A DNA stretch of 64,000 nucleotides from Lacinutrix sp. 5H-3-7-4. GTDB taxonomy: Bacteria > Bacteroidota > Bacteroidia > Flavobacteriales > Flavobacteriaceae. The notes beneath the pieces were generated by a model, which was not told where the DNA came from, searched no databases, and worked only from the letters and a program-made list of their open reading frames with translations. Below are positions 21,452 through 29,983 of this stretch, in pieces. The translations under genes and the position numbers were made by a program. Position 1 is the stretch's first letter; each line of letters starts with the position of its first letter. The stretch lies in the NCBI RefSeq assembly GCF_000211855.2, contig NC_015638.1:2205001-2269000 (forward strand), read 5' to 3'.

Positions 21452-21480
21452 GCAAGTTTTTAATATAATTGGCATCTAAA
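21452..21480 (+). promoter_or_regulatory. ECF promoter P1, in front of the sigma factor gene
   Basis: GCAAGT, 15 bases, then CATCTAAA. The same arrangement recurs four more times up to 25181. The element ends 27 bp before the sigma factor start, so the sigma factor most likely drives its own gene. No other promoter-like element stands out in 21296-21507. Confidence 0.8.
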
Positions 21481-21507
21481 TTATATTAGAATAAAATTTA
21501 GAATTTT

Positions 21508-22086
21508 TTGTCGGAAACCGAATTTATAGAAGAACTTAGGAGCAAAAGCGAAAAGGCTTACAGTAGATTACTAGATGATTTTCAACAGAAAGTCTATGCT
21601 ACATGTATTTCTTTTGTGCCAAATACCGAGGATGCCGAAGATATTGCACAAGACGTTTTTGTTGAAGTGTTTAATGCTATACATAAATTTAAAGGACAGT
21701 CTAAACTATCAACCTGGATTTATAAAATTACAACAAATAAATGTTTGGAATTTATACGTAAAAAAAATACTAAAAAACGTTTTGCTTTTCTACAGTCTAT
21801 AACAGGAAATGTTATTCCTATGGATATGACAAATTATTTTACAGAGATGAATCATCCTGGTGTATTACTAGAAAATAAAGAAACAAGTAAAACGCTTTTT
21901 TATGCAATAAATCAATTACCAGAAGCACAACGCACTGTTTTTACGTTGCATAAAATAGATGGTAAAAGTTATAATGAAATAAGTGAAATTATAGATAAAA
22001 GTTTATCATCTGTAGAATCTTTAATGTTTAGATCTAAAAAAAATCTACAGAAAATATTAGAGAACTTTTATAAGAATAATATTTAG
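21508..22086 (+). CDS. ECF-type RNA polymerase sigma factor (module 1)
   Basis: A 192-residue sigma-70-family protein of the extracytoplasmic-function class. Region 2 is seen in NTEDAEDIAQDVFVEVF and KLSTWIYKITTNKCLEFIR. Region 4 is seen in LPEAQRTVFTLHKIDGKSY followed by the helix-turn-helix EISEIIDKSLSSVESLMFRS. The start is the TTG at 21508. An in-frame stop (TAG at 21499) lies just upstream and no ATG occurs before the middle of region 2. Promoter P1 lies directly upstream, and the anti-sigma candidate follows after 39 bp that hold promoter P2. It probably responds to an envelope signal relayed by the next two genes. Confidence 0.92.
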   Translation: MSETEFIEELRSKSEKAYSRLLDDFQQKVYATCISFVPNTEDAEDIAQDVFVEVFNAIHKFKGQSKLSTWIYKITTNKCLEFIRKKNTKKRFAFLQSITGNVIPMDMTNYFTEMNHPGVLLENKETSKTLFYAINQLPEAQRTVFTLHKIDGKSYNEISEIIDKSLSSVESLMFRSKKNLQKILENFYKNNI

Positions 22087-22087
22087 C

Positions 22088-22116
22088 GCAAGTTTTGTTG
22101 AGAATTTGCATCTAAA
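22088..22116 (+). promoter_or_regulatory. ECF promoter P2, in front of the anti-sigma candidate
   Basis: GCAAGT-N15-CATCTAAA, identical in layout to P1. The element overlaps nothing but the 39-bp gap between two genes. Its -10 ends only 9 bp before the ATG at 22126, so transcription would start almost on that codon. This favours the second ATG at 22138 as the used start when transcribed from P2. Confidence 0.8.
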
Positions 22117-22125
22117 ATAATACAA

Positions 22126-22446
22126 ATGAAAATAAATATGAACATAGACGAAAAGGTATCAAAGACTTTAGAAGCCTTTGACACAATGGACACTGTAAAA
22201 ACACCTCCTTTTTTTAAGGATAAAACCATGCAGCTTTTATTTACAGAGAAAGAAGAAAAAGTGGCAGCATCTTTTTGGAGTTGGTTTACACCACAATTAC
22301 AACTGGCTACTTTAGTATGTGTGGTATTGGTTAATTTTTATGCCATCAAAGAAATAAATAATTCTGAATATGAATCGTCAATTTCAACTTTTGCGTCAGA
22401 TTATGGGATTTCTACAGAGCAAGAAACATCAATTTTCAATTTATAA
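22126..22446 (+). CDS. small membrane protein, putative anti-sigma factor (module 1)
   Basis: A 106-residue protein with an acidic and basic cytoplasmic N-terminal half of about 45 residues, one membrane helix (about residues 55-70, LATLVCVVLVNFYAI) and a short outer tail. I do not recognise a named family. Its position right after the ECF sigma gene, its single helix and its size are what one expects of a short anti-sigma factor that holds the sigma at the membrane. An alternative start at 22138 (MNIDEK) fits promoter P2 better. The next gene starts 3 bp after the stop. Confidence 0.65.
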   Translation: MKINMNIDEKVSKTLEAFDTMDTVKTPPFFKDKTMQLLFTEKEEKVAASFWSWFTPQLQLATLVCVVLVNFYAIKEINNSEYESSISTFASDYGISTEQETSIFNL

Positions 22447-22449
22447 GAG

Positions 22450-22917
22450 ATGAAAAAAAATACAGTTTTATATGTATTGCTTATTGTTTTAATAGTAATA
22501 AATGGATTTTTTTTATTCAACTATTTAGGACGACCACAGCATAATGGAGCTAAGGAGTCTAGTAATTTTATTGTAAAAGAATTAAATTTTAATGAGTCTC
22601 AATTAGCGGAATTTAAACAGTTGGAAGAAAATCATCATATAGCTATGCAAAGCATTGGAGATGATATAAAAGTAAATAAAGATAAATTGTTTAAAAAAAT
22701 TACAGCACCTACAATTGATAGGGTTAAGGTAGATAGTTTAATTCATGAAATTTCTAAAACAGATGTGTTAAGAGAAAAAGAACTTTTTAATAAACTTAGA
22801 GGGATTTATGAGATTTGTAACGAAAATCAAAAAAAACAATTTACAGACATTTTAAAAAAAGCAAGACGTTTTGATGGTAATAGGCCAAACGGACCAAGAA
22901 GACCAGATAGACCTTAA
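22450..22917 (+). CDS. CpxP/Spy-like periplasmic sensor protein (module 1)
   Basis: A 155-residue protein with one N-terminal hydrophobic helix (residues 6-26) that anchors or exports it, then a helical periplasmic domain. The pattern ELNFNESQLAEFKQLEENHH and IYEICNENQKKQFTDIL matches the CpxP/Spy and heavy-metal-resistance (CnrX-like) family, whose members sense misfolded proteins or metals outside the membrane. It starts 3 bp after the putative anti-sigma gene and ends at a terminator. The tail NRPNGPRRPDRP is arginine- and proline-rich. I infer that it modulates the sigma/anti-sigma pair. Confidence 0.8.
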   Translation: MKKNTVLYVLLIVLIVINGFFLFNYLGRPQHNGAKESSNFIVKELNFNESQLAEFKQLEENHHIAMQSIGDDIKVNKDKLFKKITAPTIDRVKVDSLIHEISKTDVLREKELFNKLRGIYEICNENQKKQFTDILKKARRFDGNRPNGPRRPDRP

Positions 22918-22943
22918 AAAAATAGCAAATAATTTTATAAAAA

Positions 22944-22970
22944 GACCTTAAGTAATTAAGGTTTTTTTTT
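22944..22970 (+). terminator. terminator after the sensor gene
   Basis: ACCTTAA-GTAA-TTAAGGT followed by nine T, 27 bp after the stop. Confidence 0.85.
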
Positions 22971-22994
22971 GTGTTTTATTTAACAAAACAAAGC

Positions 22995-23023
22995 ACAAGT
23001 TATTTTCAATTACATCATCTAAA
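22995..23023 (+). promoter_or_regulatory. ECF promoter P3, in front of the two-EF-hand gene
   Basis: ACAAGT-N15-CATCTAAA. It has one base change in the -35 element (A for G) and keeps the same 15-base spacer. It ends 34 bp before the ATG and sits after a terminator, so the downstream gene depends on it. Confidence 0.78.
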
Positions 23024-23057
23024 ATTATATAACAAAATAATTTTAAAAATTTAGATT

Positions 23058-23342
23058 ATGAAAAGCAACACAATCAAAACAGCAATATTAACATTTGGAA
23101 TAGCAGTATTAGTTTCAAATAGTTCATTTGGTCAATCTGAAAAAAGAGAACAAAAAACGCCGCCAACATTTAGTGAGTTATTAAAAGAACTAGATAAGGA
23201 TGAAGATGGCTTACTTTCTAAAACAGAAGTTAAAGGTCCATTGAAAGAAGGTTTTTCTGAAATTGATACAGATGAAGATGGTTTTATTTCTGAAGAAGAG
23301 TTTAAAAAAGCACCAAAGCCTAAAAGAAGAGAAAGAAGATAA
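23058..23342 (+). CDS. exported protein with two EF-hands
   Basis: A 94-residue protein. The first 25 residues form a signal peptide (TAILTFGIAVLVSNSSFG). The mature part is one pair of canonical EF-hands with loops DKDEDGLLSKTE (46-57) and DTDEDGFISEEE (70-81). It ends in a basic tail KPKRRERR. Both loops carry the Asp, Asp, Gly and Glu residues needed to bind calcium. The segment LSKTEVKGPLKEGFS is identical to one in the YHYH protein at 24010, so the two share an origin. It is a single-gene transcript between promoter P3 and a terminator. It is probably a periplasmic calcium sensor or buffer. Confidence 0.85.
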   Translation: MKSNTIKTAILTFGIAVLVSNSSFGQSEKREQKTPPTFSELLKELDKDEDGLLSKTEVKGPLKEGFSEIDTDEDGFISEEEFKKAPKPKRRERR

Positions 23343-23369
23343 AATAAAATTTTTGGTTGGTTAGTAGTT

Positions 23370-23405
23370 AAAAGCTTTGTGATGTAAAAGTCATGAGGCT
23401 TTTTT
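23370..23405 (+). terminator. terminator after the two-EF-hand gene
   Basis: A 13-bp stem with several G-T pairs (AAAAGCTTTGTGA / TCATGAGGCTTTT) and a following T run. Confidence 0.75.
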
Positions 23406-23426
23406 CAAGTTTCAAACTTTAAAATC

Positions 23427-23455
23427 GCAAGTATTTATAAAAAAAGTCATCTAAA
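23427..23455 (+). promoter_or_regulatory. ECF promoter P4, in front of the four-EF-hand gene
   Basis: GCAAGT-N15-CATCTAAA, ending 23 bp before the ATG at 23479. It lies right after a terminator, so it is the only visible promoter for 23479-25140. Confidence 0.8.
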
Positions 23456-23478
23456 CATTAAATCAAAACCATATCAAT

Positions 23479-24006
23479 ATGAAAAACAAAAACTTAAAAT
23501 TAGTATTCTCAATATTTATTTTACTATTAACAACAAGTGTTTATGCACAAGGTCGTGGTGGCGGAAGAGGTCAAGGTGGAGGAAGAGGTCAACAAAGAGC
23601 ACAGCCAGACGCATCAGAAATATTATCAAAGTTAGATACCGATAACGACGATAAAATTTCTGCAGAAGAAGCTTCTCAAGATCAAAGAGGAAAAATTTCT
23701 GAAAATTTTGATGAGATAGATAGTAACGCAGATGGGTTTATCGATTTAGAAGAATTAAGCGATTCATTAAATAATAAAAGCTCTAAAAAGAAAGAAAAAA
23801 AAATAGCTCCTAAAAAGTTAATAAAGCAAATAGACGATAATGGAGATGAAACTTTAAATGAACTCGAAATAGCGGCAAAAGATAACCGTCAATTAATGAA
23901 AGATTTTAGTAAAATTGATCGAAATGCAGATGGTGAATTAGATTTGGAAGAACTGGAAGCTTTTTATGCAAATGAAGAACATTTAAAACCTAAAAGAAAA
24001 AACTAG
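23479..24006 (+). CDS. exported protein with four EF-hands
   Basis: A 175-residue protein with a signal peptide (residues 1-24, ending SVYAQ), a Gly/Arg/Gln-rich linker (25-42) and two EF-hand pairs. The loops are DTDNDDKISAEE (53-64), DSNADGFIDLEE (81-92), DDNGDETLNELE (119-130) and DRNADGELDLEE (147-158). Loops 1 and 3 lack the glycine at position 6 and may bind weakly, while loops 2 and 4 are canonical. A lysine-rich hinge separates the pairs. The YHYH lipoprotein gene starts 3 bp after the stop, so the two are co-expressed from P4. The function is likely calcium-dependent binding outside the inner membrane. No enzyme domain is visible. Confidence 0.85.
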   Translation: MKNKNLKLVFSIFILLLTTSVYAQGRGGGRGQGGGRGQQRAQPDASEILSKLDTDNDDKISAEEASQDQRGKISENFDEIDSNADGFIDLEELSDSLNNKSSKKKEKKIAPKKLIKQIDDNGDETLNELEIAAKDNRQLMKDFSKIDRNADGELDLEELEAFYANEEHLKPKRKN

Positions 24007-24009
24007 ATT

Positions 24010-25140
24010 ATGAAAAATAGATTAATTATAACTTTACTTGTTACTGTTTTTGTTGGCTGTAAAAGTAACAATAAGTCTCACAGTCATGATGGCTCTGTGG
24101 CACATAATCATGACCACGAAGCTGCTAATACAACAAACAATTATTTTGGGAATTATTCTTTAATAAATGAAGAATACGGTACAAAAACAGTGGTAACTGT
24201 AGATTCAAACTCGCGTAAAATGGAAACTAATGCGTTGCCAAATCATGAAACAGGAACATTTCCAAATCCTGGTAACCCAAATACTATAAAAGCTCAAAAT
24301 AGAACATATACATTTCCGTTAAACCCTAAAAAAGGAGAAAAAGCACAATGGATTAGAGAACCAGGAGTAGCATTAAATGGTATAAAATTCGAGCCAGGAA
24401 CAGCAGAGGTTGTACAATGCGAAACTGGAGAAAATTATCGAGTAGAAGCTTTGCAAGATGTTATTGATTTAGGTTTAGATTTTAATCATGCACACGTACA
24501 ACCAACAGGAGCTTACCATTATCACGGCACTCCAACATCTGTTATACAAAAATTCGATTCTGGAGAAGATTTAGTGCACGTTGGTTTTGCTCACGATGGA
24601 TTCCCGATGTATTATTCTAAAAGTGGAAAATATAAACCAAGCTATAAGCTATTAGATGGAAATCGTGAAGGCGAAGATTGTAGTTACGATAATCCGCACC
24701 AATCTATAGACATTTCGGTTGGAGGACACCACGATGGTACTTATGGTTCAGATTTCGAGTTTGTTGATGGTTATGGAGATTTAGATGAATGTAACGGGAT
24801 TACCATAAACGGAAACTATATGTATTTAGTAACAAAAGAGTTTCCATACATAAGCCGTTGCCTTATGGGAGAAGTTAATGAGAGTGAAAAAAGAGCATTG
24901 GGAATGCAAGGTAGTGGAGATGGTAGACCACAAAATAGACCAGGAGGAAGACCTAATGCAACTCAAATAATAAAAGAAATGGATACTAATAATGATGGAA
25001 AATTATCTAAAACCGAAGTTAAAGGACCTTTAAAAGAAGGTTTCTCTAAAATCGATGCCAATAACAATGGTTTTCTCTCTAAAGAGGAATTAGAAAAAGG
25101 AGGAGAAAAAAACAAGCAAAAACCACCAAAACATAATTAA
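24010..25140 (+). CDS. YHYH-domain lipoprotein with His-rich segment and C-terminal EF-hands
   Basis: A 376-residue lipoprotein (signal with lipobox cysteine at residue 17, VFVGC). Residues 24-36 are a histidine-rich stretch (HSHDGSVAHNHDH), a likely metal-binding patch. The YHYH domain follows, with the name motif at 169-172 and AHDGFPMY at 194-201. A Gly/Pro/Arg linker leads to two EF-hand loops, DTNNDGKLSKTE (325-336) and DANNNGFLSKEE (349-360). YHYH proteins are of unknown function, and the fusion to EF-hands is seen in marine bacteria. The EF-hand unit is closely related to the gene at 23058. It shares promoter P4 with the four-EF-hand gene. Confidence 0.85.
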   Translation: MKNRLIITLLVTVFVGCKSNNKSHSHDGSVAHNHDHEAANTTNNYFGNYSLINEEYGTKTVVTVDSNSRKMETNALPNHETGTFPNPGNPNTIKAQNRTYTFPLNPKKGEKAQWIREPGVALNGIKFEPGTAEVVQCETGENYRVEALQDVIDLGLDFNHAHVQPTGAYHYHGTPTSVIQKFDSGEDLVHVGFAHDGFPMYYSKSGKYKPSYKLLDGNREGEDCSYDNPHQSIDISVGGHHDGTYGSDFEFVDGYGDLDECNGITINGNYMYLVTKEFPYISRCLMGEVNESEKRALGMQGSGDGRPQNRPGGRPNATQIIKEMDTNNDGKLSKTEVKGPLKEGFSKIDANNNGFLSKEELEKGGEKNKQKPPKHN

Positions 25141-25152
25141 TTTAAAAAAAGC

Positions 25153-25181
25153 GCAAGTTTATTTTTTAATAAGCATCTAAA
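25153..25181 (+). promoter_or_regulatory. ECF promoter P5, in front of the second YHYH gene
   Basis: GCAAGT-N15-CATCTAAA, ending 27 bp before the ATG at 25209. No terminator separates it from the preceding gene, so this operon may also receive readthrough from P4. Confidence 0.8.
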
Positions 25182-25208: not shown

Positions 25209-25967
25209 ATGAAAAACCTATTTAAACTAATATTATTAATGGTAGCGGTGTTTACATTAAATATTGCGTGTACTTCAGATGATGATGCTGCAAGCACAAC
25301 CACTGTTACAGAAGATGAAGTTGTAACAGAGCTTCATGCAGCATACTCGGCTTTTAATACAGATGCTACAACAATTTATATAGACGATACGGGAACAAAT
25401 GTTGTTATAGAAACTACAGGTTTACCAGATCACCAAACCGTTTATTGGGGAGAAGGACATCCGCTTTACATAGAAGAGCCAGATGTACAAGTAACACCTA
25501 GTATAATGTCAAGTAACAATAATGCTGTAACTATCACAGTAGATGCTACACCAAATTTATCAGGCAATACAGTATCTACAACATTTAATACTATTGGTAT
25601 AGCAGTTAGTGGCGCTTCAATTTTTAATGATCAAGAAGGTGGCGGACCTTTAGACCAAGCAGCAGCAAGTTTAGATTATACAGGTGCACATATTGGGCCA
25701 GGTGTCTATCACTATCATTTAGAGCCCAAAGCTTTTTCTAATGATGATGACGCCTTAGTTGGTGTATTATTAGATGGTGTTTTCCTTTACGGTAGAAAAT
25801 GTAATACAACTGGTACATACCCAGACGATTTAGATGCTTCAGGAGGTCATACTTCTACAACACAATATACAGATGGAGAAGAAGAATACCACTATCATAT
25901 AATAAACGAAGTATATTCTAATACAGGATCTTACTTAGCATTCGCAGGACCATATCAAGGGTACTAA
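25209..25967 (+). CDS. YHYH-domain lipoprotein
   Basis: A 252-residue lipoprotein (lipobox cysteine in TLNIACTS, followed by an acidic DDDAA). The domain has GVYHYHLEPKA, the LDGVFLYGRKC turn and a second EYHYH near the C-terminus, which marks the YHYH family. It lacks EF-hands, unlike its paralogue at 24010. It is the first gene of a three-gene run with the YwqK-type and SCO genes (4-bp gap, then a 26-bp overlap), expressed from P5. The clustered histidines and acidic residues suggest metal binding, but this is inference. Confidence 0.82.
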   Translation: MKNLFKLILLMVAVFTLNIACTSDDDAASTTTVTEDEVVTELHAAYSAFNTDATTIYIDDTGTNVVIETTGLPDHQTVYWGEGHPLYIEEPDVQVTPSIMSSNNNAVTITVDATPNLSGNTVSTTFNTIGIAVSGASIFNDQEGGGPLDQAAASLDYTGAHIGPGVYHYHLEPKAFSNDDDALVGVLLDGVFLYGRKCNTTGTYPDDLDASGGHTSTTQYTDGEEEYHYHIINEVYSNTGSYLAFAGPYQGY

Positions 25968-25971
25968 AATT

Positions 25972-26592
25972 ATGAAAGCATTTTTAACTGTTATAATCGT
26001 TATTTTCTTTTTGAGTTGTAAGCAATCTTCAGAAACAAATACTTCCGAAGAAAAAAAAGTAATTAAAACCGAAAATGCTATAAATATTAAAAATGTTGAA
26101 GTACCAAAATCTGAGTTGATTTTAAATCAGCTACAAGGTGTTTGGTATTATAAAGAGGAACCTTACAACGGTTATGCTTTAAAGTATCATGAAAATAATA
26201 CTATAAAAGAAAAACTTGGTTTTTATAACGGAAAACGTCAAGGTGTAGCCAAAACATGGTCAGAGCATGGAGTACTTCGTATAGAATCATATTATAACCA
26301 AAACAAATTGGTTGGTTCTTATAGAAGTTTTTGGGAAAATGGAAACTTAGCTTTAGAGGTTAATTATGTAAATGGAAAAAAGCAGGGAGAAGAAAAACAA
26401 TGGTATTCTAACGGAAAACTATCAAAGTTAAGACTGTTAAAGGATGGGAAAGAAAATGGTATTCAAAAAGCCTGGTTGCCAACAGGACAACTTTATGTTA
26501 ATTACGAAGCTAAAAACGGTAGAACCTTTGGTTTAATGCGAGCAAACTCATGTTATAAATTAGAAAATGAAAAAGTTATTAAAACAAAATAA
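25972..26592 (+). CDS. YwqK-type MORN-variant repeat lipoprotein
   Basis: A 206-residue lipoprotein (signal ending FFLSCKQ). About five repeats of the MORN_2 type follow, each like YHENNTIKEKLGFYNGKRQG, YWENGNLALEVNYVNGKKQG and YSNGKLSKLRLLKDGKENG. Databases often name such proteins 'YwqK family antitoxin', but nothing toxin-like is nearby, so I do not adopt that role. The C-terminal coding region overlaps the start of the SCO gene by 26 bp, which suggests translational coupling. Confidence 0.8.
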   Translation: MKAFLTVIIVIFFLSCKQSSETNTSEEKKVIKTENAINIKNVEVPKSELILNQLQGVWYYKEEPYNGYALKYHENNTIKEKLGFYNGKRQGVAKTWSEHGVLRIESYYNQNKLVGSYRSFWENGNLALEVNYVNGKKQGEEKQWYSNGKLSKLRLLKDGKENGIQKAWLPTGQLYVNYEAKNGRTFGLMRANSCYKLENEKVIKTK

Positions 26593-27262
26593 AACGTTAT
26601 TGGGTTTACTGTGTTTTGCTTTAGTGCTAGCTAGTTGTAAAAAAACTGTAACAAAAGAAATTAGTAAAGCAGAAGAAACCAGTAGAGTAGAGTATTTACC
26701 ATATTATAACGAAGAGTCTTTTACACCAAAATGGTTAACACCAGGAACAGAAGAAGAAAAAACGTTTCATAAAATACCAGACTTTTCGTTAACAAACCAA
26801 CTAGGTAATGAAGTGTCGCAAAAAACGTTTGAAAATAAAATATATATCACCGATTTCTTTTTTGCTAGTTGTCCTGGTATTTGTCCGCAAATGACGGGAA
26901 ACATGTTTAAATTACAAGAAGAGTTTTTAAACGATGATGAGGTGTTGTTTTTATCGCACACCGTAACACCAACAAAAGACTCTGTTCCAGTTTTAAAAAA
27001 TTATGCCGAAAAAAATGGTGTAATAGATAACAAATGGCATTTAGTAACAGGAGATAAAGAAACTATCTATAATCTTGGAAGAGATGAATATTTTGTGGAA
27101 AATGATTTAGGAGAACCCAAAACTATTAATGATTTTTTACATACCGAAAACTTCCTACTTATAGACAAAAATAAACATATAAGAGGTATTTATAATGGTT
27201 TAAATAGAGCCTCAATAGCACAATTAATTGTTGATGTTAAAACCTTGAAGAAACAAGGTTAA
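26567..27262 (+). CDS. SCO1/SenC-family thioredoxin-like lipoprotein
   Basis: A 231-residue lipoprotein (lipobox LASC, Cys24). The thioredoxin-like SCO domain carries the copper-binding CPGIC motif (Cys102 and Cys106) and the conserved histidine His192 in FLHTENF, so all three SCO copper ligands are present. SCO proteins deliver copper to cytochrome oxidase or act as thiol reductases. No oxidase gene is in the window. It is the last gene of the P5 transcript and is followed by a strong terminator. Membership in the ECF-controlled group hints at a link to envelope copper or redox stress. Confidence 0.9.
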   Translation: MKKLLKQNKTLLGLLCFALVLASCKKTVTKEISKAEETSRVEYLPYYNEESFTPKWLTPGTEEEKTFHKIPDFSLTNQLGNEVSQKTFENKIYITDFFFASCPGICPQMTGNMFKLQEEFLNDDEVLFLSHTVTPTKDSVPVLKNYAEKNGVIDNKWHLVTGDKETIYNLGRDEYFVENDLGEPKTINDFLHTENFLLIDKNKHIRGIYNGLNRASIAQLIVDVKTLKKQG

Positions 27263-27339: not shown

Positions 27340-28440
27340 ATGAGAAAACTAACTATTACTTTACTCTGTTTACTTATAATTATAACTTTAAATAATTGTG
27401 GAAGTACTCAAGAACAAACATTAAAAACAAAGGCTTCGGTAAAAACTTTTTCTAAAATAGAAATTGAAACTCTAGTAGAAAAAAATGATTTAAACGTACG
27501 CGCTATAGAGGTCTTTAAAAATGTAGGTTTAGCCTATTTAACTTCAAAGGGAGAGTTTGGTATGCTTTTTAACAAAGAAGCTAATGTATTGCCAGCTGTA
27601 AAAGAACAATTTCCAATTAACATAAAGCATGATACAATAGTTCCAAATTTTAGAGCCTTAGCACTTACAAGTAATAGAGCGTTTGGTGTAAGTATTGGTT
27701 CGCCTGGTTTGATTTTTAATTTAGATAATGATGCACATAGAAATAAAGTAGTCTACCAAGAAAATCATGAAAAAGCATTTTACGATGCAATAGAGTTTTG
27801 GAATGACGAAGAAGGTATTGCAATGGGAGATCCAACAAATGGTTGTATAAGTGTTGTAATTACAAGAGATAGAGGAAAAAACTGGACTAAAGTGCCTTGC
27901 GATGTTTTACCAAAAGCTATAGAAGGTGAAGCAGCTTTTGCAGCAAGCGATACTAATATTGCTATTATAGGAGATAAAACTTGGATTGCTACAGGAGGAA
28001 AAGCAAGTAGAATATTATTCTCTCCAGATAAAGGGAAAACTTGGGAAGTTTTTAATACACCAATAACTCAAGGTATAGAAACTGCTGGTATGTATTCTTT
28101 AGATTTTTATGATGAGAATAACGGTTTTGCAATTGGTGGTGATTATACAAAACCTGGAGATAGTACTGCTAATAAAATTAGAACAAATGATGGTGGGAAA
28201 ACTTGGGAATTAGTAGCTAAAAATGAAAACCCTGGTTATAGAAGTTGTGTGCAATATGTACCAAACAGCAATGCAAAGGCATTAGTAACTGTTGGTTTTA
28301 AAGGTATAGACTATTCTAGCGATGCGGGCGAAAGCTGGACACATTTAAGCGATGAAGGTTTTTATACAATTAGGTTTGTTAATGATAGTATTGCCTATGT
28401 GGCTGGAAATAAAAGGATAGCTAAATTACTATTTAGATAA
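27340..28440 (+). CDS. Ycf48/BNR-like beta-propeller lipoprotein
   Basis: A 366-residue lipoprotein (signal with lipobox LNNC). The mature part is built of repeated blades with the BNR signature SxDxGxTW in degenerate form: RDRGKNWTK, SPDKGKTWEV, TNDGGKTWEL, SSDAGESWTH. This matches the Ycf48/photosystem-II-assembly-like and sortilin-type propeller proteins that databases often call 'oxidoreductase'. I see no catalytic site for that. It lies between two terminators, 78 bp after the SCO gene, with no ECF promoter motif upstream, so it is probably outside that regulon. Confidence 0.8.
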   Translation: MRKLTITLLCLLIIITLNNCGSTQEQTLKTKASVKTFSKIEIETLVEKNDLNVRAIEVFKNVGLAYLTSKGEFGMLFNKEANVLPAVKEQFPINIKHDTIVPNFRALALTSNRAFGVSIGSPGLIFNLDNDAHRNKVVYQENHEKAFYDAIEFWNDEEGIAMGDPTNGCISVVITRDRGKNWTKVPCDVLPKAIEGEAAFAASDTNIAIIGDKTWIATGGKASRILFSPDKGKTWEVFNTPITQGIETAGMYSLDFYDENNGFAIGGDYTKPGDSTANKIRTNDGGKTWELVAKNENPGYRSCVQYVPNSNAKALVTVGFKGIDYSSDAGESWTHLSDEGFYTIRFVNDSIAYVAGNKRIAKLLFR

Positions 28441-28443
28441 AAC

Positions 28444-28473
28444 AAAAAAAGCAGCTATAAAGCTGCTTTTTTT
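28444..28473. terminator. bidirectional terminator between convergent genes
   Basis: AAAAAGCAGCT-ATAA-AGCTGCTTTTT with A and T runs on both sides serves the propeller gene and the ECF module 2 operon. Confidence 0.88.
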
Positions 28474-28918
28474 ATTTTTTAGATTTCCCACGGTGTCTTT
28501 GTTTAAACTCCTGTATCATTTTGCGTCTAAAAGAACGCTCTGCATTCATGAGTTTTAAAATCTTTTTAGCAGAAAGTATATTTTTAAGTTTTGTATAATA
28601 TTCTTTTTGTATTTTCTGTTTAGTTAATTCCATTTTAATAAGCGTATCTAAATAGTCTTTTGCCTCAGTTTCAGAGATGGCATCAAAGTCATTTATACGT
28701 TTTAAGCCAGAGTTTTCTCTAATATTATCTTCAGCTTCTTCTTTATGGTTGTAAATTGGCCAAAAGGCTTGTGCTTCTTTAGCTGTTAAATCTAACTCTT
28801 CTGTAATATGAGCTACTTTTAGAGCATTTATCTTTTCCTTATCGTGTTTTTGTGCATTTATATTCGCCGATAAAAGAAAAATAAAAATAGGGACAAGTAT
28901 GTGTTTTATATTTTTCAT
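28472..28918 (-). CDS. CpxP/Spy-like 'sensor of ECF sigma factor' protein (module 2)
   Basis: A 148-residue exported protein (signal peptide 1-22, ending SANINAQ) that is almost entirely helical and highly charged. The segment ITEELDLTAKEAQAFWPIYN and the later YYTKLKNILSAKKILKLMNAE match the periplasmic CpxP-like proteins that accompany flavobacterial ECF sigma genes. It is the third gene of the sigma/membrane-protein/sensor operon, 18 bp after the preceding stop. It likely senses envelope folding state. Confidence 0.82.
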   Translation of the reverse strand: MKNIKHILVPIFIFLLSANINAQKHDKEKINALKVAHITEELDLTAKEAQAFWPIYNHKEEAEDNIRENSGLKRINDFDAISETEAKDYLDTLIKMELTKQKIQKEYYTKLKNILSAKKILKLMNAERSFRRKMIQEFKQRHRGKSKK

Positions 28919-28936
28919 TGTAATTTTTTTAAATGT

Positions 28937-29407
28937 TTATTCTGAATATAAATCATCAAGATCTTCTATAAAGCTATCTAAAGCTTCATCACTTAATGTG
29001 TAATCAATAAATTGTGCTTCACTTAAATCTGAATCTTGAAATAAGGTTGTTAGTTCACTAATTTCTGTTTCATTTAATATATAATCATCTACAGATGCTG
29101 TATCTATATCATCTAAAGTTGTTGTTGAGGTATTAAAAATATTTAAACTAAAAAATAATATAATTGCAGCAGCAATACTAGATACAAATATTATATTTTT
29201 TTTGTTAAATATAGAAATGACTTTTGTCTCTTCTTTAACAGAAACATTAAAATTATCTAAGTAGCCTTTTGGTGCTTTTAAACCAGATTCGCTAACAATA
29301 CTTTTTAATTTTACCTCATTTAAAATAGTATCTTCAAGTGCTTCAAAATAGTTTTGAGGTACTTTAAATCCTGTTTCTTTAATATTATGTAAGTTTTTGT
29401 TTTCCAT
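28937..29407 (-). CDS. membrane protein, putative anti-sigma factor (module 2)
   Basis: A 156-residue protein with a cytoplasmic half of about 70 residues that contains two similar short elements (TGFKVPQNYFEALEDTIL and SGLKAPKGYLDNFNVSV). One membrane helix follows (about residues 72-92, IIFVSSIAAAIILFFSLNIF), then a very acidic outer part. I do not recognise a named domain beyond this pattern. Placement between an ECF sigma gene and a sensor gene argues for an anti-sigma role. Confidence 0.7.
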   Translation of the reverse strand: MENKNLHNIKETGFKVPQNYFEALEDTILNEVKLKSIVSESGLKAPKGYLDNFNVSVKEETKVISIFNKKNIIFVSSIAAAIILFFSLNIFNTSTTTLDDIDTASVDDYILNETEISELTTLFQDSDLSEAQFIDYTLSDEALDSFIEDLDDLYSE

Positions 29408-29440
29408 CTTAATACTTTGACTGTAAAAACCTTAAATGGT

Positions 29441-29983
29441 TTAATTCTCTTTTAAATAGGATTCAATTTTTTTTGCTGCTATATGGTATGATGCCTTTAA
29501 TGCACCTTCGCTAGTTTCTAAAATCTCTGCCATGTCTTTGTATTTAATATCTTGAAAATATTTCATATTAAAAACTAACTGTTGTTTCTCTGGTAATGTT
29601 GCTATGGCTTTTTGTAGCTTTATTTGTATGGCATCACCTTCAAAATAAACATCAGATTCTAGATTGTTTATTGCTATATTCTGTGCTTCTTCGTTTGTAA
29701 TTTGTAAGCGTTTAGCATTTTTATTTATTTGGGTAATGGCTTCGTTAGTTGCAATTCTATATAACCATGAATATAATTTACTATCGCCTTTAAAACCACT
29801 AATACCTTTGTAGACTTTTATAAATGTATTTTGTAAAACATCATCTGCATCGTCATGAGATTTTACAATATTTCTTATATGCCAATACAAACGCTCTTTA
29901 TAGAGCGCAACTAATTCTTTGAAGGCTGCATCTTTATAATCTGGCGATTGTAGTTTTAATATAAGTTTTTTATCGTCTACCAC
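29441..29983 (-). CDS. ECF-type RNA polymerase sigma factor (module 2)
   Basis: A 180-residue sigma factor. Region 2 shows HDDADDVLQNTFIKVYKGI and SWLYRIATNEAITQINK. Region 4 shows LPEKQQLVFNMKYFQDIKYKDMAEIL and SEGALKASYHIAAKKI. The start codon is GTG at 29983, which is preceded directly by an in-frame TAA, so no ATG start is possible. The operon order sigma, membrane protein, CpxP-like sensor repeats that of module 1. A candidate own promoter is at 29997-30025. The rest of the 281-bp upstream gap holds no reading frame. Confidence 0.92.
   Translation of the reverse strand: MVDDKKLILKLQSPDYKDAAFKELVALYKERLYWHIRNIVKSHDDADDVLQNTFIKVYKGISGFKGDSKLYSWLYRIATNEAITQINKNAKRLQITNEEAQNIAINNLESDVYFEGDAIQIKLQKAIATLPEKQQLVFNMKYFQDIKYKDMAEILETSEGALKASYHIAAKKIESYLKEN

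Follow-up and report, generated by a model that had tools for sequence, protein, structure and literature searches.

A conserved two-block motif, putatively of promoters, and its probable extracytoplasmic function sigma factor in Lacinutrix sp. 5H-3-7-4 and related Flavobacteriaceae

Five copies of a two-block motif stand in a gene cluster of Lacinutrix sp. 5H-3-7-4 and are very probably, judging from their sequence and distribution, promoters of an extracytoplasmic function (ECF) sigma factor encoded in the same cluster. The stretch analysed, hereafter the window, is 64,000 nucleotides long and corresponds to positions 2205001–2269000 of the genome, which was searched as one contig (NC_015638.1) of 3,296,168 bases; all coordinates below are those of the window unless stated otherwise. 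The nearest named relatives of this genome are Lacinutrix. Taken as a whole, the best explanation is that the sites are read by the ECF sigma factor encoded at 21508–22086, which would be held at the membrane and would feed back on its own module while driving genes for exported proteins; to this we assign a probability of about 0.82.

Putative promoter sites in the genome

A preliminary description of the region, made from the letters alone, had pointed to five elements with an identical 15-base spacer, all intergenic, ending 9–34 bp before a start codon and beginning with one in front of the ECF sigma gene itself. Each of these particulars was recovered. Exact matches to RCAAGT-N15-CATCTAAA occur on the + strand at 21452, 22088, 22995, 23427 and 25153, with a gap of 15 bases in each, as compared with an expectation of 0 in 100 shuffles. 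All five are intergenic, and the distances from their ends to the next start codon are 27, 9, 34, 23 and 27 bp, respectively. Site 1 (21452–21480; -35 GCAAGT, -10 CATCTAAA) precedes the sigma gene, which starts with TTG at 21508. Site 2 (22088–22116) lies two bases past the sigma stop codon and 9 bp ahead of the anti-sigma candidate, site 3 (22995–23023) before the first EF-hand gene, site 4 (23427–23455) before the second EF-hand gene and a YHYH/EF-hand gene, and site 5 (25153–25181) before the YHYH-MORN-SCO genes. Four of the five have A at the sixth base past CATCTAAA.

The genome-wide scan that had been recommended returned five exact matches in 3.30 Mb, every one at an intergenic position in this cluster and none at random or coding positions elsewhere; a reversed control pattern gave none. 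With the shorter pattern CAAGT-N15-CATCTAA, no further match with 0 or 1 mismatch exists in the window, and the seven with two mismatches are at chance level (12 in total vs 9.26 expected). Across the genome, matches with up to two mismatches number 69 forward and 37 reverse, vs 38 and 41 for the control. Six one-mismatch matches lie outside the cluster, five of them inside genes as defined by our own open reading frame caller and one at genome position 310015 (L092:2016-2044), 33 bp before a DUF4197 lipoprotein-like gene. The equivalent site in 15 other loci has one or two mismatches in three and at least four in the rest, a count that omits L212 and includes L205, for which the start used was wrong. 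The DUF4197 gene is a possible sixth target of the sigma factor. The earlier idea that all local targets are laid out in a row fits this genome, with one possible addition, but in the relatives dispersed sites are also found ahead of genes.

Association of the sites with the sigma factor

The occurrence of the motif was followed in a sample of 299 genomes drawn from the family Flavobacteriaceae. A clear orthologue of the sigma factor (E <= 2e-72) is encoded in 35 of them, four weaker matches being left out, and at least one CAAGT-N15-CATCTAAA is present in 74. At least three exact sites were counted in 22 of the 35 orthologue-bearing genomes but in 0 of the other 264; the corresponding figures are 26/35 vs 5/264 for at least two sites and 31/35 vs 43/264 for at least one. 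The mean number of exact sites per genome is 2.97 with the orthologue and 0.18 without.

The same region was then compared in 81 loci (1.33 Mb), made up of the window and the best 80 of 230 named loci from a scan of genome contigs with a sigma alignment. Exact matches total 268 on the strand of the sigma gene, with 0 on the opposite strand and 0 for a control in which each half was reversed; a spacer of 14 bases gives two matches and one of 16 gives three. Allowing one mismatch, the counts become 314, 3 and 1, respectively. By our own open reading frame caller, 272 of the 314 have a start codon no more than 150 bp downstream and 18 have one at 150–260 bp; another 19 are elsewhere in intergenic sequence and five are in coding sequence.

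Bases outside the search pattern are conserved as well among the 235 exact sites with distinct flanks. A purine precedes CAAGT in all 235 and is itself preceded by C in 93%; a run of T follows CAAGT, G precedes CATC in 60%, and A occupies the sixth base after CATCTAAA in 77%. Of 272 sites, 181 have a 9-base tract free of G and C at 12–20 bases upstream, whereas 4.9% of 9-mers from intergenic sequence lack both letters; the placement of the tract suggests that of an UP element. The co-occurrence with the orthologue, the constancy of strand, spacing and position, and these additional bases strongly support the proposal that an ECF sigma factor has its own regulon here.

Conservation is highest not at the autoregulatory site but at the site between the sigma stop codon and the anti-sigma candidate. 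Of the 81 loci, 80 have this site with one mismatch or none (68 exact, 12 with one), and the last has two. The site ahead of the sigma gene is bimodal: 46 loci have at most one mismatch (44 under a narrower position rule), one has two, and 34 have four to six, which is the level of shuffled sequence (810 shuffles, none of which reached one mismatch). Feedback through the anti-sigma and sensor candidates would therefore be the constant feature and autoregulation the variable one. Positive autoregulation, which is common among ECF sigma factors though no requirement, may occur here, where a site precedes the gene, but the proposal cannot be extended to the 34 loci at background level.

The putative promoters also differ in their predicted leaders. 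The ATG of the anti-sigma candidate lies a median of 9 nt past the -10 element (at most 10 nt in 55 of 76), and that of the effectors 26 nt past it for the first EF-hand group, with medians of 22.5–33 for the other effector groups. Should transcription start at the conserved A 6 nt past the -10 element, the anti-sigma mRNA is predicted to be leaderless or nearly so. In Flavobacterium psychrophilum leaderless mRNAs have been put at 5.5% (PMC9723704).

Anti-sigma factor and sensor candidates

The sigma factor (21508–22086, +; 192 aa) contains Sigma70_r2 and Sigma70_r4_2 above the Pfam cut-offs and TIGR02937 above its own, with no families other than those of regions 2 and 4, as is typical of ECF sigma factors, and is 98% identical to that of Lacinutrix sp. 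MedPE-SW. Its TTG start codon sits in a T run, a context shared by the relatives compared, and this weak start may limit sigma synthesis.

The next gene (22126–22446, +) specifies a small single-pass membrane protein of 106 aa, considered an anti-sigma candidate from its position and from a low-confidence model in which a transmembrane helix is accompanied by two helices on the cytosolic side and a short one at the tail. No Pfam family is found above cut-off. CnrY is absent from its four PDB sequence matches at E <= 10; the best of these, at 1.5e-4, is to a photosystem I chain, and no single stretch of it passes by itself. Neither this search nor hhalign (probability 0.5%) revealed direct homology to CnrY.

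The adjoining gene (22450–22917, +) encodes a membrane-anchored protein of 155 aa with a CpxP/Spy/CnrX fold, the sensor candidate. LTXXQ is above cut-off, and Metal_resist scores 26 bits vs a cut-off of 29.2. The model, built from a 72-sequence alignment (predicted local distance difference test, pLDDT, 86), shows an N-terminal transmembrane-type helix followed by a helical hairpin. Foldseek matched it to Spy, ZraP, CnrX, CpxP and NccX; the template modelling scores against CnrX are 0.55–0.58 when normalised to the query and up to 0.82 when normalised to the target. Profile searches gave 2.7e-4 for Spy and 0.44 for CnrX. Among 75 sensors H62 is kept in 72, M66 in 65 and C123 in 54. A conserved CnrX-type metal site was looked for in the protein from the window and not found. 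Architecture and fold have strengthened the original guess at an anti-sigma factor and a sensor, and CnrYX-like membrane control of the sigma factor is likely on the basis of the models.

Probable target genes

The content of the remaining cluster is as first described, as judged by Pfam. Two genes for exported EF-hand proteins (23058–23342 and 23479–24006, +), recognized by EF-hand families and an N-terminal hydrophobic segment, are followed by a gene for a lipoprotein-like YHYH protein with C-terminal EF-hands (24010–25140, +; YHYH 1.3e-56). The last unit comprises a second YHYH gene (25209–25967, +; above cut-off), a lipoprotein-like MORN_2/YwqK-like gene (25972–26592, +; Pfam) and a gene for an SCO1/SenC family protein (26567–27262, +; 2.7e-23). 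A BNR/YCF48-like gene (27340–28440, +; Pfam) is an uncertain member, being part of the site-driven unit in 17 of the 81 loci. The N terminus of each of the seven products encoded downstream of the sensor gene contains a hydrophobic segment, and four match a simple lipobox-like pattern. The two YHYH matches in this cluster are the only ones in the whole genome. The EF-hand loops of the products of 23058–23342 and 24010–25140 are paired at 24 residues from start to start (12 between loops), a short spacing known from lanmodulin; matches of the EF-hand proteins in the window to the lanmodulin profile are far under cut-off.

In the 81 loci, the first genes behind sites with at most one mismatch are those for the anti-sigma candidate (77), the first EF-hand protein (54), the sigma factor (46), the second YHYH protein (43), the second EF-hand protein (21), the YHYH/EF-hand protein (11), other YHYH proteins (8), CotH (8), CotH-LTD (8) and VTC (3); rarer are BNR (2), a sulfatase (1) and the sensor (1), with seven in no group. 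Site-driven units include the anti-sigma and sensor candidates in 77 of the loci and SCO in 41. Among 20 stretches around other matches, the site stands before a gene in 11 and in coding sequence in seven; one is the main cluster again and one is ambiguous. A Pfam search of 20 chosen proteins from site-driven units identified CotH, VTC, DUF4956, DUF2490, YHYH, di-haem CCP_MauG, sulfatase, MbnP, DUF3500, a TonB-type barrel, PAP2 and a type IX secretion system (T9SS) sorting domain protein, with DUF6702 slightly below cut-off and two proteins without a family. In genome G188 a dispersed site lies ahead of an MbnP gene (Pfam); the next gene is of MauG type and most like MbnH, a likeness under the NCBIfam cut-offs.

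Three loci (L046, L053 and L082) have a VTC (polyphosphate polymerase)-DUF4956-DUF2490 unit behind the site, tested with Pfam in L046 and assigned by likeness in the other two; in L046 and L082 a CotH-like gene, recognized by eye, follows. A set of CotH, polyphosphate polymerase and DUF4956 genes has been noted to adjoin Pel exopolysaccharide loci (PMC7112168). In L064 and L067 an exact site on the opposite strand, just upstream and near the sigma start, perhaps serves a divergent target gene.

Occurrence outside the family

Matches to the sigma factor at <=1e-45 were found in 9 of 296 genomes of the order and at <=1e-38 in 91 of 395 genomes of the class. These searches supplied 35 outgroup loci, 34 from other families and one (L192) containing a distant homologue from the same family. 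Compared with RCAAGT-N15-C(A/G)TCTAAA, in which the A/G choice was made after some of these loci had been seen, the site near the sigma end has at most one mismatch in 12, two in five and three or more in 18, whereas a control stretch nearby has four to six in 34 of the 35 and one in L240, where the flank is cut. CGCAAGT is the steadier half; the -10 element varies (CATCTAAA, CGTCTAAA, CGTCAAAA, CTTCTAAA), with CAT, CGT or CTT. The sigma gene is followed by a sensor homologue (E < 1e-12) in 31 of the 35 and by an anti-sigma homologue (E < 1e-3) in 27. A third open frame is present in 26 outgroup loci, of which 14 match YHYH (8), CotH (3) or CCP_MauG (3) by BLAST at 1e-3, some of the matches being weak. 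Judged by sequence comparison, other families of the class also have the three-gene module, in some cases with YHYH, CotH or MauG-type genes next to it, and we read it as an old module with related output.

Comparison with known systems

The closest parallel is CnrYXH of Cupriavidus metallidurans (plasmid pMOL28). Both systems have an ECF sigma factor (hhalign probability 98%, 22% identity), a small membrane anti-sigma factor, here a candidate, encoded by an adjacent gene, and a membrane-anchored helical-hairpin sensor whose fold is predicted to be shared. In modules of the CnrYXH type the anti-sigma factor clasps the sigma factor until the sensor binds metal. A CnrH-dependent promoter has been reported ahead of cnrY (PMC9045368), and two helices of CnrY have been described as embracing CnrH (PMC4598750). 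The gene order differs, being Y-X-H there and sigma, anti-sigma, sensor here; the anti-sigma sequences are unrelated; and the targets are an efflux pump there but EF-hand, YHYH and SCO genes here. CnrX ligands, which we take to be H42 and H46, are not kept. It is the architecture and fold of the two candidates, rather than their sequences or metal ligands, that are like those of CnrY and CnrX. On pMOL28 itself, cnrY has as a neighbour a small gene whose annotation reads YHYH domain-containing protein (L195:12905-13027).

The RpoE/SigW-type ECF sigma factors share both sigma domains and are the best-scoring relatives in profile and PDB sequence searches. The sigma-E consensus -10 element contains TCTAA, which is likewise present here; AAG and CAT replace AAC and CGT. 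Profile searches of the window proteins gave no match to an RseA-type or zinc-type anti-sigma family. AAC at -35 and CGT at -10 were an earlier hallmark of ECF promoters that is described as no longer defining (PMC8103513), and the 268 putative promoters with CAAGT and CATCTAAA do not conform to it. Among flavobacterial ECF-type promoters, the SM6 promoters of F. psychrophilum have been mapped experimentally (PMC9723704); they differ in having a CGT box, as against CATCTAAA here, and T9SS genes among their targets, which are other genes here.

Proposed mechanism and alternatives

We propose that each promoter would consist of an AT-rich upstream tract, a -35 element CRCAAGTTTT and a -10 element GCATCTAAA, with the start some 6 nt further on, and that RNA polymerase carrying the ECF sigma factor (21508–22086) would bind and transcribe from all five. 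At rest the membrane protein (22126–22446) would grip the sigma factor by its cytosolic helices, a grip that the CpxP/CnrX-fold protein (22450–22917) may tune from the periplasm, as the architecture suggests. A periplasmic signal would release the sigma factor, which would then transcribe its own gene and, from the internal promoter, the anti-sigma/sensor pair (negative feedback through the site with the highest conservation), together with three units whose products are exported EF-hand, YHYH, MORN and SCO proteins. As the signal we favour a metal such as copper, or the state of the envelope; this is the weakest step.

Several observations weigh against this explanation. The 81 loci are related, so their counts are not independent. 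An exact site is absent from 4 of the 35 genomes with an orthologue, each of which has a one-mismatch site behind the sigma gene, and L058 and L066 have no site there at one mismatch or fewer. The G/C-free tract is found at only three of the five sites in the window, and 18 of the 35 outgroup sites depart by three or more bases. This genome's single CotH gene and its four MauG-type genes, considered as hidden targets, were rejected, having no site (best 5 mismatches). Every Foldseek E-value of the sensor is above 0.001; the metal ligands of CnrX are not kept in it, and the position aligned to H119 of CnrX is K in the window and H in 58 of 75 sensors. The anti-sigma model is weak (pLDDT 63), and the protein has no detectable sequence similarity to CnrY.

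The sites might instead be read by another regulator, either an activator on a direct two-block element or the other ECF sigma factor of the window (29441–29983, - strand). That gene occupies 28472–29983 together with two downstream genes in which no Pfam family reaches its cut-off, and in 25 of 37 loci the stretch read includes a sigma paralogue of 25–33% identity, perhaps but not necessarily the same gene. The second sigma factor, however, is matched at 1e-40 in 262 of the 299 family genomes; its distribution therefore does not follow the sites, which track the orthologue of the first, and it was rejected as their reader. An operator of another kind is disfavoured because the sites are asymmetric and oriented: they keep to one strand, with a fixed spacer, near gene starts, with an AT tract and a conserved A at the expected start. 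We regard a different regulator as very improbable. If the sites are indeed promoters of the first sigma factor, the 106-aa and 155-aa proteins might still be effectors, with the sigma factor controlled otherwise, a notion encouraged by the low confidence of the smaller protein's model and its want of a sequence link to a known anti-sigma factor. Both genes, however, trail the sigma gene in 77 of the 81 loci, both tend to be kept in the outgroups at the frequencies given above, and their architecture fits CnrY/CnrX, so that this is unlikely. A third alternative keeps the regulon as drawn but has the sensor respond, like Spy and CpxP, to envelope protein that is misfolded or disturbed, metal playing no part. 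Spy is its best profile and fold match and the CnrX ligands are not kept, but the presence of H62 and M66 in most sensors argues otherwise, as do copper-linked targets: the 41 loci with SCO units, MauG-type genes in several and one MbnP/MbnH-like pair. Sensing of envelope protein alone is possible, though less likely than not.

Implications

In the Bacteroidetes only 6% of ECF sigma factors were reported to have a class I anti-sigma factor nearby, for which broken synteny or other anti-sigma classes were suggested by the authors (PMC7406223). A search of titles and abstract openings brought to light no published description that we recognized as this module or motif. What is new here are the unusual promoter boxes, the different anti-sigma candidate and the link to YHYH, CotH and MauG-type genes in several families. 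We tentatively extend the scheme to a class-wide module in which an ECF sigma factor is joined by a CpxP/CnrX-fold sensor and by an anti-sigma factor that is CnrY-like (class II type) though its sequence is unrelated. The anti-sigma mRNA would start at a sigma-dependent promoter of its own, immediately past the sigma stop codon, and have little or no leader (ATG 8–9 nt after the -10 element, with the start expected at ~6 nt), and the effector mRNAs would have longer ones (ATG ~26 nt after the -10 element). The secreted proteins that the module may govern (YHYH, CotH, MauG/MbnP, SCO and EF-hand) would form a programme of metal/redox chemistry and protein modification. As an answer to the missing anti-sigma factors of the Bacteroidetes the module would be a conserved candidate, pairing a membrane protein like CnrY with a CnrX-fold protein in the periplasm. 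Its promoter, sharply defined and open to test, would depart from the usual AAC/CGT code, and the module may also give access to the YHYH, CotH and MauG-type proteins, which are poorly understood.

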